A stretch of DNA of 64,000 bases from Roseateles sp. DAIF2. GTDB lineage: Bacteria; Pseudomonadota; Gammaproteobacteria; Burkholderiales; Burkholderiaceae_C. The notes under the pieces are model-generated. The model saw nothing but the letters and a program-made list of their open reading frames with translations. It had not been told where the DNA came from and searched no databases. Made by a program: the position numbers and the translations under genes. Positions within the stretch are counted from its first letter, which is position 1; every line of letters starts with the position of its first letter. Location: contig NZ_CP049919.1 of the NCBI RefSeq assembly GCF_015624425.1, positions 5,766,001-5,830,000 on the forward strand, written 5' to 3'. Below, piece after piece: positions 55,665 through 63,534 of the stretch.

Positions 55665-55719
55665 GGTGGCCCAGCATAACCGCAGGCACGCCGGCCTGCC
55701 GCCGGTCACGGGGCGATGT

Positions 55720-58548: not shown

Positions 58549-58916
58549 GGGGCGGGGTGAGCGGCGGCTTGAGGCTGATCTGAGCCATTCGCATGCCTAC
58601 GCCTGAGCGGCAGCATCCACGAAAACCGGTCATTGGGCGCCGTTGGCCACGACCGGCTGCTTCACCCCGAGAACCGGTCGCTCGATCGCGGGGCAAGCCA
58701 TGCAAAGGCTCGAACAGCAGCTTCAGCGCGCTGCGACAGACTCATGTCGACCCGAAGCGGTCCGTCGCTATATACGAGAGCGGACGTTCGGCCGATAGCT
58801 TGTGGATGTCCGCTGTAGTCCGCCGCAAATGTGGGTCAGAATTCGGCGCGCAGACCCCGGCGGAGTACTGGGTCAAGATTCAGCGAGCATCATCACTACG
58901 TGTTTAGTGCGCTTCT
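58549..58916. other. Junction spacer with insertion-sequence-like remnants
   Basis: 368 bases without a gene between the lipoprotein and the ATPase island. The left part is ordinary GC-rich sequence. The middle holds dispersed GACCGG/CCGGTC words. The right part holds two imperfect copies of a 21-base unit starting TGGGTCARRATTC (58832-58852 and 58869-58889), like the repeated ends of IS21-type elements. The last 20 bases before the start codon contain CACTA...TAGTG, a possible small operator. Confidence 0.45.
58832..58889. repeat. Two tandem TGGGTCA-type terminal-repeat remnants
   Basis: Units at 58832-58852 and 58869-58889 share 17 of 21 positions and are 37 bases apart in the same orientation. 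Repeated TGGGTCA-type units at element ends are a feature I associate with IS21-family ends. There is no transposase gene nearby, so at most a decayed end remains. Confidence 0.4.
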
Positions 58917-61313
58917 ATGAGTAAACCAATCGAAGCCATTCTGGCGGAGTGCGAGGATCTGATCTCACGCAATGAGGTTAGTCGAGCGTTCGACACGCTC
59001 CTCGCACTCATCCAGCATGGAAGCAAGGCAGACATCCAGCGCCTCCAACCGTCGCTGGGCGAAATCATTGGGCGCTTTCTCCCGAAACGGAAGCGCGACC
59101 TCGGCCAAGCGCTGGAACAACGCCTTGGCACGAGCGATACGCGCGACGCCGTCCCGATAGCGACGAGGAAGTGCGCACAAGGAGGCATCAAGGAGTTTGA
59201 GGCGACGGTCAGTGAGCGCTTCGATGAGCTGAGCCGCTGGCACATTTTCCAATGGTCAACGTATTACCGGGATGAACTGCGCGGCATCCTGGCCGACGTT
59301 GTTGATCTGATCCGAGCCGACAAGGCCGCGGATGCCGCATTTGATCTTCTGCGCGACCACGCGCGGAAACACGCCAGAGAGATCTTCACGAAGGGCTATA
59401 ACTTCGTCATGTCCCAGCCCTGGGCCGTCGCGGACTCGGCTGAAGGGAAGGCGCTCGGCGGGCTCCGATCCTTTCTCGTCTTGCCCGTTGAACTGTATGC
59501 CGACCAGTCCGCCCGACTTAGTGCACCGCAAGACTGCAGAGTCCTGAGGCGCGCAACCTCTCGCCTGCTGTCGGCAATCTTGCTTGGCTTTACTGAAGCC
59601 ACTTTGGGATCCAGTTCCTCGATTGACATGCTGCGACGGACGGTCAAGTCCTGGGCGCATGTCCTGCCACTCCTGGAGGGGCAGGATCTCAAGGCTGTCG
59701 ATCAGCGCCTCGGGCTCGATTCGCTATCGCCCATTCTCGGCGAACCGTTGCATCGCTTGACAAGGGCTCTAGATGAAGCATCCCAGATGAGCAGTGTCGA
59801 TCCGATAGTGGTGCTGTTCACCTCGATGAACTTGGACGATCGAGTCCTAGACGTGACGCTTCGTCCACCGGCAGATTCCAGCGATACGAAGCCACTCGAA
59901 GTGGCGGTCATTGGTGGAGATGGCATCGCCGCCCGTTCGCAAATCGAGCAACGGGCCAAGCATGGCTACATTGCGTGCTTAACGAACAAGCCCGCGCGGG
60001 ACTATTGGGGCGGAAAGTTTGTGCCCGGAACCATCTCAGAGCTTGTCGTGCCGTTTGCAGAAGCCGACAGTGGTTTTCTGCTTACACGATTGCGGCAGCG
60101 GTTCCACGAAACCAAGGTCGTGATACCGAGGGGCGCTCCACTGCGTACCAACGTCGCAGAGCGCTTCCCTCTAGAGAACCCAACCCTTCTCACCTTCTTC
60201 CGTGTCCAGCGTCAGAGCATCCGTGCCCTCGAAGCGACCATTTCCAACCGGACTGGCGTTCTGCTTTGGTGCAGCGTCAGGCGCAGTGGAAAGACCACGG
60301 GTGTCAGCGAACTGGCAAACGCTATCCAGGAGAAGAGCGCAGTCTTTCAGCGGTGCGAGATGACCGGCCTGGACATGGGGAGTCGCGTTCTCTTTGAGGC
60401 TGTGCGCGATGCGCTCTCTGAACTGACCCCGCTTCCGAAGGACTTCGTACGCAAGCTCGTCGCCCAGGCCGCTCCAATGGGAGTTGCTCCGAGCCAAGGT
60501 TCTATTCTGATCCTCGATGAGTACGACCGGCTGTTTGGCCTTCTTCGTGCCGCTGGGCGGCGGAACGAGGATGCACGCCACTTGGTTGTGCAGCCACTTC
60601 TCGACCAGTTCGTGGAGTTCGCCACTGAGAACTTGTTGATCTTTCTCGGTCAGCAGCCGAACGCGCATTTCATCTTCATGGATCAGAACCAGTTGAGCGC
60701 ATACGTGCAGCAGGAGTCCTATCCGCTCTTCTCTCATTCGAAAGATGCGACCCAGGGCGAGTTCTGGGGTCTACTGGAGAAGGTATTTTCGAACACACTG
60801 AAGTACGACGCATCGTTCGCGAATGTGGCCTTCGAGGAGACCGGCGGGCACCCGTTTTTGACGGTGAACCTTTTGCGAGAGCTGGTGGACTGGCTGATCA
60901 GCAAGAGCGTCGTTCCGAGCGACGTCATGCTGACCAAGGCAGTGTTCGACGAGTTTATGAGTGAGCGACTCGATCCCAAGTCGATTGCGCTCAGCAAGCA
61001 CTTCGAGTACTTCAGGTCAGCCGCCGCCGAGGCACTTTCTGAGGACGGCGCCCAGGAGACGCCCTGGGTCCATACTGCTTATCACCTCTTGACTTTGCTC
61101 GGCACCTCCGGCTCAGGCGGGAAGCTGGCTGCGGATCGAGCCGACATCGAGGCATCGCTTACCACCACATTGGAGCGAACTGGATTGTCGAGCTTCACAT
61201 GCGAGTCCTTCATCGCCAGTGCGGCTCGAAGCAACTTTGTGGAGGTCGAGGACGATCAGGTCGCTGCCAAGATTCCCATCTTGGCCAGGATCGCTTCAGC
61301 GACTCGCAGGTGA
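58917..61313 (+). CDS. Large P-loop ATPase of the island (STAND/AAA-like), unknown system
   Basis: 798 residues, cytosolic, no signal. The first 430 residues have no family I recognise; they include a helical N-terminus and a strand-rich stretch (VDPIVVLFTSMNLDDRVLD, LEVAVIGGDGIAARSQIEQ). The ATPase follows: a Walker A-like CSVRRSGKT (Lys459, with RRSGKT instead of the GxxxxGKT consensus) and Walker B ILILDEYDRL (Asp534, Glu535). It also has ETGGHPFLTVNLLREL, the GG-x-P sensor-like motif of STAND and archaeal-type ATPases. A winged-helix-like C-terminus follows. Codon use is less GC-rich than the neighbours. It is 21 bases before a second gene of unknown family. A nucleotide-gated sensor or effector in a defence or mobile-island context is inferred. 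Confidence 0.82.
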   Translation: MSKPIEAILAECEDLISRNEVSRAFDTLLALIQHGSKADIQRLQPSLGEIIGRFLPKRKRDLGQALEQRLGTSDTRDAVPIATRKCAQGGIKEFEATVSERFDELSRWHIFQWSTYYRDELRGILADVVDLIRADKAADAAFDLLRDHARKHAREIFTKGYNFVMSQPWAVADSAEGKALGGLRSFLVLPVELYADQSARLSAPQDCRVLRRATSRLLSAILLGFTEATLGSSSSIDMLRRTVKSWAHVLPLLEGQDLKAVDQRLGLDSLSPILGEPLHRLTRALDEASQMSSVDPIVVLFTSMNLDDRVLDVTLRPPADSSDTKPLEVAVIGGDGIAARSQIEQRAKHGYIACLTNKPARDYWGGKFVPGTISELVVPFAEADSGFLLTRLRQRFHETKVVIPRGAPLRTNVAERFPLENPTLLTFFRVQRQSIRALEATISNRTGVLLWCSVRRSGKTTGVSELANAIQEKSAVFQRCEMTGLDMGSRVLFEAVRDALSELTPLPKDFVRKLVAQAAPMGVAPSQGSILILDEYDRLFGLLRAAGRRNEDARHLVVQPLLDQFVEFATENLLIFLGQQPNAHFIFMDQNQLSAYVQQESYPLFSHSKDATQGEFWGLLEKVFSNTLKYDASFANVAFEETGGHPFLTVNLLRELVDWLISKSVVPSDVMLTKAVFDEFMSERLDPKSIALSKHFEYFRSAAAEALSEDGAQETPWVHTAYHLLTLLGTSGSGGKLAADRADIEASLTTTLERTGLSSFTCESFIASAARSNFVEVEDDQVAAKIPILARIASATRR

Positions 61314-61334
61314 CGCAGCCAGGGGCAACGAATC

Positions 61335-62357
61335 ATGATGAACGTTCAAGTTATCGCAGACTACCTGAGGAACCTTCACGTGCAGCGCGACGTTGCCGTA
61401 GCCGCGTATTGGCTTGAGGAGGCAGCATCGCGCTCAGAACTCGTGTCCCAGCTCTCGGCTCTGCTGTCGGACCTACCCGTCCTCATTGCCGCGGTCCCGA
61501 AAGGAGCCTTCGATGATCCGAATGGGATCATCGATGACCTCGCGAAGACCATTTCGGACAACGCCGAGTGGTTCGGCGAGGAGAAGCGAACAGCCATTAC
61601 GCGAGATGAGAAGTTCTCGCTGGTCCTGGTGTCAAAGCGGGCACTTGACGTACCCCAGCTCTCTTCACCGGTTACTTTGCCGGACTGGTTTCCGCAATGG
61701 CCCGGCGAGCTGTTGACGGTCACGATCAAGAGCGTCACGGACGCTATCGACATTTCATTCGCATCGGCGGATATCCCTGTCGCTTCTATCAACGCTTCGT
61801 TGCATGCGCTCGAATCTGCTCTATGCGCTAGGCTTGACTCTGTCTTGCGGCGCGCCCCGACAGCCGCTGCGAGTTTGCGTGCACGCCTTGGTGGAAGCAA
61901 GGGCCCCGTCGACTTGATACAACTGATCTCCCAGTCAGAGGAGAAGAGACGCAGTGTCGCGCCTGCCGACTTCCGGCCGGGAGGTAGCGCAAGTGGTGAG
62001 TATCTTGTATCGCGACTGTTCAGCCAGTGGTGGGAGTGCAGCCACAAAGACCTTCACAGGCTTGCCGTCGACATAGCAGAAGCGCTGGATATCCACACGG
62101 GCTCAAAAGTCGAGGCGCAGCATTCCTTGGCATCGCTGCTGACACGCACCGTAAGACCGAAGCTCGCGGAAACCCCGCCCGGCGTGACGCTCGCTCGCAA
62201 TGCGATCGTCAGCTTGGCCCATGCGATTCAATTCACGAACGCCGTTCATCACGCCGGCGACTATCCCAACTTCCCGGCTGCGCTAACGATCAGCTACGCA
62301 AAGGACTTGTCTCGGTCGTGTAAGCGTGCGGCGGATGCACTCAGCACTTTGGCTTGA
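61335..62357 (+). CDS. Partner protein of the ATPase, unknown family
   Basis: 340 residues, no signal or membrane span. Predicted mixed fold in the first 150 residues (VIADYLRNLHVQRDVAVAAYW, LPDWFPQWPGELLTVTIKSV) and helical C-terminal half (LFSQWWECSHKDLHRLAVDIAEAL in two parts, ARNAIVSLAHAIQFTNAVHH). No catalytic motif is convincing. It starts 21 bases after the ATPase stop on the same strand with similar, less GC-rich codons, so the two form an operon. Whether it is a sensor, an effector or an adaptor cannot be told from sequence. Confidence 0.7.
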   Translation: MMNVQVIADYLRNLHVQRDVAVAAYWLEEAASRSELVSQLSALLSDLPVLIAAVPKGAFDDPNGIIDDLAKTISDNAEWFGEEKRTAITRDEKFSLVLVSKRALDVPQLSSPVTLPDWFPQWPGELLTVTIKSVTDAIDISFASADIPVASINASLHALESALCARLDSVLRRAPTAAASLRARLGGSKGPVDLIQLISQSEEKRRSVAPADFRPGGSASGEYLVSRLFSQWWECSHKDLHRLAVDIAEALDIHTGSKVEAQHSLASLLTRTVRPKLAETPPGVTLARNAIVSLAHAIQFTNAVHHAGDYPNFPAALTISYAKDLSRSCKRAADALSTLA

Positions 62358-62559
62358 TCAGGGGCCCGCGAATCAGGTGTAGATCGGTTCAACACCTGTC
62401 CAAATGATCAATTGCATGGTGGATGGAGTTGACGTGTAGTCGACGAAGAAGGTCTGTTTTGGGGTGCGCATGCGGATGTCTGTCCTGTCGCAGCCAAATA
62501 TGGCTAATGCACTGGCTGTGCGGGCAACACTCAAGCCTTAACCCCTTACCGGTGAACTT
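62358..62559. promoter_or_regulatory. Spacer between the ATPase pair and the DUF4238 gene
   Basis: About 200 bases, AT-richer than the chromosome average here. An inverted repeat CAGGTGT...ACACCTG (near 62376-62400) follows the upstream stop and may be a weak terminator without a T tract. The rest probably contains the promoter of the DUF4238 gene. Confidence 0.35.
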
Positions 62560-63534
62560 GTGGCCATAGCGAAAGTCCAACACTACGTACCGCAGTTCCT
62601 ACTCAGGAACTTTGGCAACGGCAAGAAGGATCAAGTGTGGGTTTACGACAAGTCGTCTGCGCGGGCGTTTCCGTCAAATACGAAGAACGTTGCTAGCGAG
62701 AGCCGCTTCTACGATTTCGAGTATCAAGGTCAAACTATTTCACTCGAGCCATGGCTTAGTCAGCTAGAAGGCAACGCGCAATCGGTGATCCGGTCCATTC
62801 TTGAGGCGGACTCGCTGGCCACGCTGACTAATGAGCAGAGGCAAATCCTGGCGGCATTCTTGGCAGTCCAACTGACCAGAACTAAGACGTTCCGCGAACA
62901 ATGGGATGCCCTCCCAAGGCTGCTACGCGAGCACTTACAGCGCAACGGTGATCAAGTTGCAGCGGGTTCCCAGGCAGAAGAGTTGATACGGGACATTCCG
63001 CCAAACGATCTCAAGGAGCAGGCCGCGAGAGTCATCTACAAGGCCCCAGAGACTTACGCTTCGCAGTTCCTCAACAAGGACTGGGTACTTGCAGCTACGA
63101 CGCGCAAGGCTCCGTTCTTGCTTAGCGATAACCCGCTGACACGCCAGAACATGGTCGATCGACCCGGCAGAGGGAATCTCGGGTTGGCGCTCCCAGGTAT
63201 CGAGATCTACTTCCCCCTGTCACCTACTCGTGCTTTGGCGATGTGGTGCCCTACCCTTACAGAGACAGTTCATCGTGGAGCTCTGACTCTTATGAGTCGC
63301 AACGGCTCCACAGCGACGGTGCACGATCCCAACGGCATCATCAGAATGAGCGACGCGTTGCTCAATGGCGATCCCGTCCTGTACTCGCCGGAAAACGTCG
63401 AGAACTTCAACTCGCTCCAGATCATCTGGAGTGAGCGATACATTTTCTCAAGCGCCAATGACTTTCAGCTCGCGCAAACCATGCTTAGCAAGCATCCAAG
63501 CCTCAAAAAGGGGCCGAGACCAGCTACGGCGTAG
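62560..63534 (+). CDS. DUF4238 protein
   Basis: 324 residues, no signal. The N-terminal VQHYVPQFLLRNF is the DUF4238 hallmark, followed by helical segments (LSQLEGNAQSVIRSILEAD, TNEQRQILAAFLAVQLTRT) and a C-terminal strand region with FLLSDNPLTRQNM and IEIYFPLSPTRALAMW, also typical. It starts at GTG 62560, with no better ATG that keeps the motif. DUF4238 proteins are often found in islands next to restriction or defence genes; no function is proven. Codon use matches the ATPase pair. Confidence 0.85.
   Translation: MAIAKVQHYVPQFLLRNFGNGKKDQVWVYDKSSARAFPSNTKNVASESRFYDFEYQGQTISLEPWLSQLEGNAQSVIRSILEADSLATLTNEQRQILAAFLAVQLTRTKTFREQWDALPRLLREHLQRNGDQVAAGSQAEELIRDIPPNDLKEQAARVIYKAPETYASQFLNKDWVLAATTRKAPFLLSDNPLTRQNMVDRPGRGNLGLALPGIEIYFPLSPTRALAMWCPTLTETVHRGALTLMSRNGSTATVHDPNGIIRMSDALLNGDPVLYSPENVENFNSLQIIWSERYIFSSANDFQLAQTMLSKHPSLKKGPRPATA

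Follow-up and report, generated by a model that had tools for sequence, protein, structure and literature searches.

Two adjacent genes of Roseateles sp. DAIF2, encoding a large P-loop ATPase and a smaller partner protein, probably constitute a horizontally mobile, two-component, NTPase-gated anti-phage defence module, a function predicted here from gene context. We favor this reading because the pair travels as a unit and lies near known anti-phage genes in several genomes. The pair is patchy in occurrence, mobile, and conserved in gene order, which are traits of defence systems.

Both genes lie on the forward strand of the window, that is, the whole stretch of 64,000 nucleotides analyzed, and are separated by a gap of 21 bases (Table 1). 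A preliminary description of this DNA had given the coordinates, lengths, and gap of the two genes, all of which proved exact when the open reading frames (ORFs) were rechecked. It had also noted that the pair uses fewer GC-rich codons than the genes to its left, and this holds against the four nearest of them: GC3 is 0.695 in the ATPase gene and 0.672 in the partner gene (0.67–0.70 rounded) versus 0.88–0.96, and GC content is 58.6% and 58.7% versus 71%–72%. Genes further to the left are covered by a 2-kb GC profile. According to profile searches, the next gene after the partner encodes a DUF4238 protein (62560–63534).

Table 1. Positions in the window of the gene pair, its conserved motifs, and the shared DNA unit
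Feature	Position	Strand	Description
Transferred unit: two genes with 184 bp upstream and 120 bp downstream	58733..62477	+	blastn, 92.9% identity to Sphaerotilus mobilis
ATPase gene	58917..61313	+	798 aa, P-loop NTPase without curated family
N-terminal region, residues 1–430	58917..60206	+	without recognised domain; residues 101–260 best conserved (W113, Y117, H152 invariant)
Walker A, residues 453–460 SVRRSGKT	60273..60296	+	K459 invariant in alignments
Walker B, residues 531–535	60507..60521	+	ends in invariant D534-E535
GGHP motif, residues 643–646	60843..60854	+	G644, H645, P646 invariant
Partner gene	61335..62357	+	340 aa, without recognised domain

Homologue searches, each scoring 8000 candidates, returned at least 151 relatives of the ATPase (best 120 of 151 listed) and 53 relatives of the partner, or 58 with a wide alignment. 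When 84,980 species genomes were scanned for two exact peptide patterns only, 21 loci emerged, each with a homologue of the partner immediately 3' of the ATPase gene and on its strand. The same order occurs in family genome G254 (L026/L044) and in two Klebsiella plasmids. With the window included, the partner is therefore directly downstream of the ATPase at every locus examined, 25 of 25 in four phyla; the identical ORFs of L017 and G339 count as one locus, and the other homologues, mostly on metagenome contigs, lie outside this count. Family genome G327 contains a fragment, namely a 74-residue match to the ATPase N-terminus only (E 3.1e-7), and the 3 kb retrieved there contains no partner. 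Stop-to-start distances across loci range from overlaps up to gaps of 39 bases, some starts being uncertain. Identities of the ATPases and of the partners are correlated (r = 0.89; 17 loci, 136 locus pairs), the partner being the more divergent in 133 of the 136 comparisons, and both proteins are large and can be aligned over their full length across phyla. The proposal that the two genes form a pair is thus upheld at all 25 loci with more than a fragment. Two apparent gene fusions were dismissed: that at L024 is a decayed copy, having lost the 3' part of the ATPase gene, with the remainder running in frame into the partner, and the one at L011 is an ORF-calling artefact.

As read from genome comparisons, the pair moves between distant bacteria as one small unit. 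In Sphaerotilus mobilis the cassette alone matches the window by blastn, at an unrelated site and with flanks that have no homology. Differences between the window and S. mobilis fall on codon positions 1, 2, and 3 at 31, 16, and 93 sites in the ATPase gene and at 9, 12, and 45 sites in the partner gene, a pattern that points to purifying selection. No consensus promoter was found at the cassette borders, nor were repeats that could be taken as transposon ends. Three different queries against 72,556 plasmid records were positive for two records, both from Klebsiella, and these copies represent one lineage since their proteins are identical and their downstream DNA is common. Two queries against 50,697 phage records, one scan of IMG/VR, and a single DNA query of plasmid origin against E. 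coli genomes all failed to reveal a copy. Counting its own genome, the pair is rare and patchy, being present in one of three genomes of the genus, in 4 of 399 of the family (the G327 fragment included), and in 1 of 398 of the phylum; this differs from the mainly core-genome occurrence that the preliminary description had named as contrary to its reading.

The same short or negative gaps between two genes, together with mobility on two conjugative plasmids, could also be expected if one gene neutralised the other, as in an addiction or toxin-antitoxin-like cassette. We regard such a cassette as very unlikely, given that both proteins are so large and alignable from end to end across phyla, and that no Pfam toxin or antitoxin family is common to the partners.

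The surroundings of the pair in the window differ from both congeneric genomes from about base 55,700 onward, to 64,353 in G002 and 66,571 in G001, so that the differing segment ends about 350 bases past the window end in the former and about 2.6 kb past it in the latter; the exception within it is a repeated stretch of about 260 bases. GC-rich MlaE/MCE genes lie inside this segment, and a DNA search with them in the two congeners gave short matches only. The pair had been placed at a chromosomal junction, which stands in this looser sense. Where the DNA of G002 differs, it includes an FRG-domain gene. The DUF4238 gene was rejected as a third component because it lies beyond the unit shared with S. 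mobilis and has no blastp match at E 1e-3 among the ORFs of the 21 other loci.

Alignments show the ATPase core to be a conserved P-loop NTPase, as judged from its sequence: K459, T460, D534, E535, G644, H645, and P646 are invariant both in a 91-row and in a diverse 39-row alignment. The unusual Walker A (RRSGKT with Lys459), the clear Walker B, and the GG-x-P motif first noticed in the window are real. The glycine that normally opens GxxxxGK[ST] is replaced in the Walker A by Ser453, and Trp451-Cys452-Ser453 is also invariant, giving WCSVRRSGKT. The NTPase core begins near residue 450, after the long N-terminus, and by estimate some 110 residues lie C-terminal to it. As in the preliminary description, the N-terminal 430 residues could not be placed, with no sequence-profile match to a housekeeping ATPase.

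Searches of Pfam, NCBIfam, PADLOC, and PDB sequences gave no match above cut-off for either window protein. The ATPase gave a single sub-threshold AAA match in Pfam (E 0.076, residues 457–572), a single chance match in NCBIfam (E 0.31), and none in PADLOC; the partner gave none in Pfam, PADLOC, or NCBIfam, in agreement with its description as a protein of no recognised family. Among 39 diverse ATPases searched against Pfam at E up to 1, 11 matched AAA_22 (best E 4.5e-5) and five matched AAA, and when ten ATPases were scanned singly, two matched AAA_22 over the region from P-loop to Walker B, both with scores short of the family cut-off. No NCBIfam or PADLOC family was matched by more than two of the 39 at E up to 0.05, and the best single PADLOC matches were PrimPol (2.3e-4) and IetA (1.8e-3), in one member each. 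For 27 partners, no Pfam family was matched by more than one member at E up to 1, and residues S111, P116, W118, P120, R214, P215, and H306 are invariant in the 27 rows. PDB sequence-profile searches with both proteins gave chance-level matches, none of them credible, and profile comparison revealed no relation between ATPase and partner or between either of them and the NYN protein described below.

Current profiles might miss a divergent member of a known STAND or AAA+ defence family (Avs, RADAR, nSTAND), which would account for the P-loop, the DEY Walker B, the GHP motif, and the weak AAA_22 matches. We consider this unlikely in view of the scarce PADLOC matches given above and of the comparisons that follow. 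STAND NTPases have a P-loop, an acidic Walker B, and a GxP-type motif, and typically carry C-terminal superstructure-forming repeats as sensor. The ATPase has these motifs, with K459, T460, D534, E535, G644, and P646 invariant, but no NACHT, NB-ARC, or nSTAND family is among the Pfam matches of the 39 ATPases at E up to 1. Profile comparison with one nSTAND3 protein gave a probability of 0.3%; a genome search with the nSTAND3 model matched 14 of 14 control genomes as well and is hence uninformative. Long C-terminal sensor repeats may be absent, as only the estimated 110 residues seem to follow the core, and no repeat family was matched. The ATPase also differs from STAND proteins by its long N-terminus and by the separate partner at every locus examined. 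The RRxGKT, DExD-L, and GGHPyL pattern that we take to characterise AAA_35 (PF14516) resembles that of the ATPase by eye, yet PF14516 is absent from the Pfam matches of the 39 ATPases at E up to 1, and hhalign with one AAA_35 protein aligned the Walker B stretch alone, at a probability of 1.1%. Kinship with AAA_35 or nSTAND3 is thus unsupported by profile comparison with one protein each.

RADAR, composed of the ATPase RdrA and the deaminase RdrB, resembles the pair in being a defence module of two genes, one of which encodes a large AAA+-type ATPase. No model of the PADLOC library, which presumably contains RdrA, matches the window proteins, and no deaminase is among the Pfam matches of the 27 partners at E up to 1. 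The domain order is also unlike that of RdrA, whose AAA+ domain is N-terminal and whose C-terminus is largely alpha-helical according to PMC9994260, whereas the Walker A here lies at residues 453–460 of 798. Gabija (GajA/GajB) is likewise ATPase-based and encoded by two genes, but the window proteins matched none of GajA, Old, TOPRIM, and UvrD, nor do these appear among the shared matches of their relatives. The pair may work like RADAR, STAND, or AAA_35 systems without belonging to any of them, the likeness to STAND and AAA_35 being one of motifs.

A gene-neighbourhood check named beforehand found, in addition to the constant pairing, that genes with profile support as defence or restriction genes occur at most 10 kb from the pair in 8 of the 21 genome loci, a count to be read as association. 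In L005, a complete Gabija system precedes the pair by about 0.5 kb (GajA E 1.2e-213, GajB E 1.4e-255), and relatives of both of its proteins are found upstream in L019, where a class II Argonaute is also near the pair. L004 has a C5 DNA methylase and an OLD/HEC-04-like ATPase, L006 a DpdB-like neighbour (E 1.2e-15), L017 a type III restriction enzyme upstream and HEC-05 downstream, and L022 a PglZ neighbour (E 1.3e-56). N6 methylases, assigned to their loci by coordinates and frame length, occur in L012 (E 3.1e-62) and, as a weak match, in L010 (E 8.1e-9), and this family was matched in 13 of 14 control genomes as well. On plasmid pKP1601-1, the record annotation places a dGTPase 1.3 kb, a NACHT protein 7.5 kb, and Mov34/MPN and ThiF proteins 10–11 kb from the pair; the annotated stretch of the second Klebsiella plasmid is free of defence genes, so that by annotation one of the two plasmid copies has such neighbours. 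DptFGH, guessed by eye beside the pair in Streptomyces L008, was not confirmed, and control genomes were equally silent. Neighbours scanned as a set comprised 113 hand-picked ORFs of 22 loci, chosen to the exclusion of five ORFs longer than 1000 aa and of some that were short or overlapping, and the family counts from this set reflect the commonest 25 of 487 and of 142 families. The anti-phage architecture proposed for the pair is supported in part: pairing and patchiness hold, defence genes lie nearby at some of the loci, and the function itself is predicted from this context.

It is somewhat unlikely, though less so than the alternatives above, that the pair is a mobile stress-response, nucleic-acid-processing, or regulatory module without a specific anti-phage role, in which the ATPase would remodel a host complex with the partner as adaptor, and which would ride in islands because islands collect cargo. 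Such a module would fit the 6 of 21 loci (L007, L009, L013, L015, L018, and L020) that have ordinary neighbours only, as far as scanned or read by eye. Neighbours scanned singly in L009, L011, L013, L018, and L020 were metabolic or tRNA-synthetase genes, and one neighbour each in L007 and L011 had no PADLOC match. The lack of copies in the phage records and IMG/VR searched, and a defence-neighbour count that is an association, would fit it as well. Against it, defence systems of several unrelated classes are found near the pair in different phyla, and its distribution is patchy.

A third gene may indicate how the proposed defence module acts in one clade. Just downstream of the pair, four actinobacterial loci (L014, L016, L022, and L023) have a homologous gene of about 485 aa, 47%–58% identical among them. 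The L016 protein, scanned singly, contains an NYN domain (E 1e-12), and NYN was matched by 4 of the 113 neighbour ORFs. Residues D12, N15, D83, D107, and D109, which we take to be the nuclease site, are invariant in all four proteins. These loci form one side of a branch in a 23-row ATPase tree (support 100/100); L008, L011, and L015, also actinobacterial, have no relative of the NYN gene, and neither does the window, where the DUF4238 gene comes next instead. Because the NYN gene keeps the expected acidic residues, RNA cleavage is a likely output, at least in this clade.

In the mechanism that we propose, the 430-residue N-terminal region of the ATPase would sense a phage-induced cue, and ATP binding or hydrolysis at the AAA+/STAND-like WCSVRRSGKT/DEY core with its GHP motif would switch or assemble a complex with the partner. 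By itself or by recruiting a further protein, the partner would then perform or license a reaction, toxic or directed at nucleic acids, that halts the infection, with RNA cleavage as the output in the NYN clade. We are less sure of these sensor and effector roles than of the defence reading, and the effector step of the partner is a guess because none of 27 partners matched a catalytic domain in Pfam. More tentatively, the pair could represent a new class of immune NTPase, with a non-canonical WCSVRRSGKT P-loop as switch, an N-terminus of no known family as sensor, a constant partner of possibly new fold as effector or adaptor, and an NYN RNase acquired as a third component in Actinomycetota.

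The literature surveyed, which leaves supplements and most subscription papers outside its scope and includes passages of PMC12629846, PMC11291487, and PMC9994260, holds no description of the pair, and accessions and locus tags of its relatives had no match in the full-text literature searched. Two protein families for which the searched libraries have no curated model thus occur together across four phyla at all loci examined, and their self-contained 3.7-kb cassette is directly testable in a laboratory strain. If the pair is defensive, it would add a system unmatched by the 2023 PADLOC library, and the NYN clade would provide a handle on its effector step.

The gene located 202 bp 3' of the ATPase/partner pair encodes a DUF4238 product that is also matched by the PADLOC defence-system model DUF4238-Pers (E 1.6e-8). 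Its GC content is low, and DNA comparison places it outside the cassette common to the window and Sphaerotilus mobilis. From approximately 55,700 to beyond the window end (loci L040, L041, and L042), the DNA is unlike that of both congeneric genomes, with conserved flanks on either side. The corresponding segment of one congener, G002, contains a gene that looks transposase-like by eye, and an FRG-domain gene is found there as well.

Features in and around the pair and its homologues
Feature	Locus and coordinates	Strand	Source or match
DUF4238 gene	window 62560-63534	+	Pfam E 2.5e-45
1863-aa protein gene and two more genes, adjoining pair	L008 13555-22219		Streptomyces lincolnensis
766-aa protein gene near pair	L019 17277-19577		Acinetobacter record
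Decayed cassette copy	L024 9605-11467		Gemmatimonadota MAG

The 1863-aa S. lincolnensis protein contains a Walker A pattern; a by-eye suspicion that this gene and its two companions form a phosphorothioate-linked restriction set was not confirmed on search, which was silent in control genomes too. The Acinetobacter protein weakly matches LmuA (E 1.3e-6) and nSTAND3 (E 5.9e-6, just under the cut-off). In the decayed copy, the 5' part of the ATPase gene is out of frame and the 3' part is gone, with the remainder run into the partner. Finally, four loci forming one actinobacterial clade (L014, L016, L022, and L023) carry a third gene 3' of the pair, which encodes an NYN-domain protein of approximately 485 aa.
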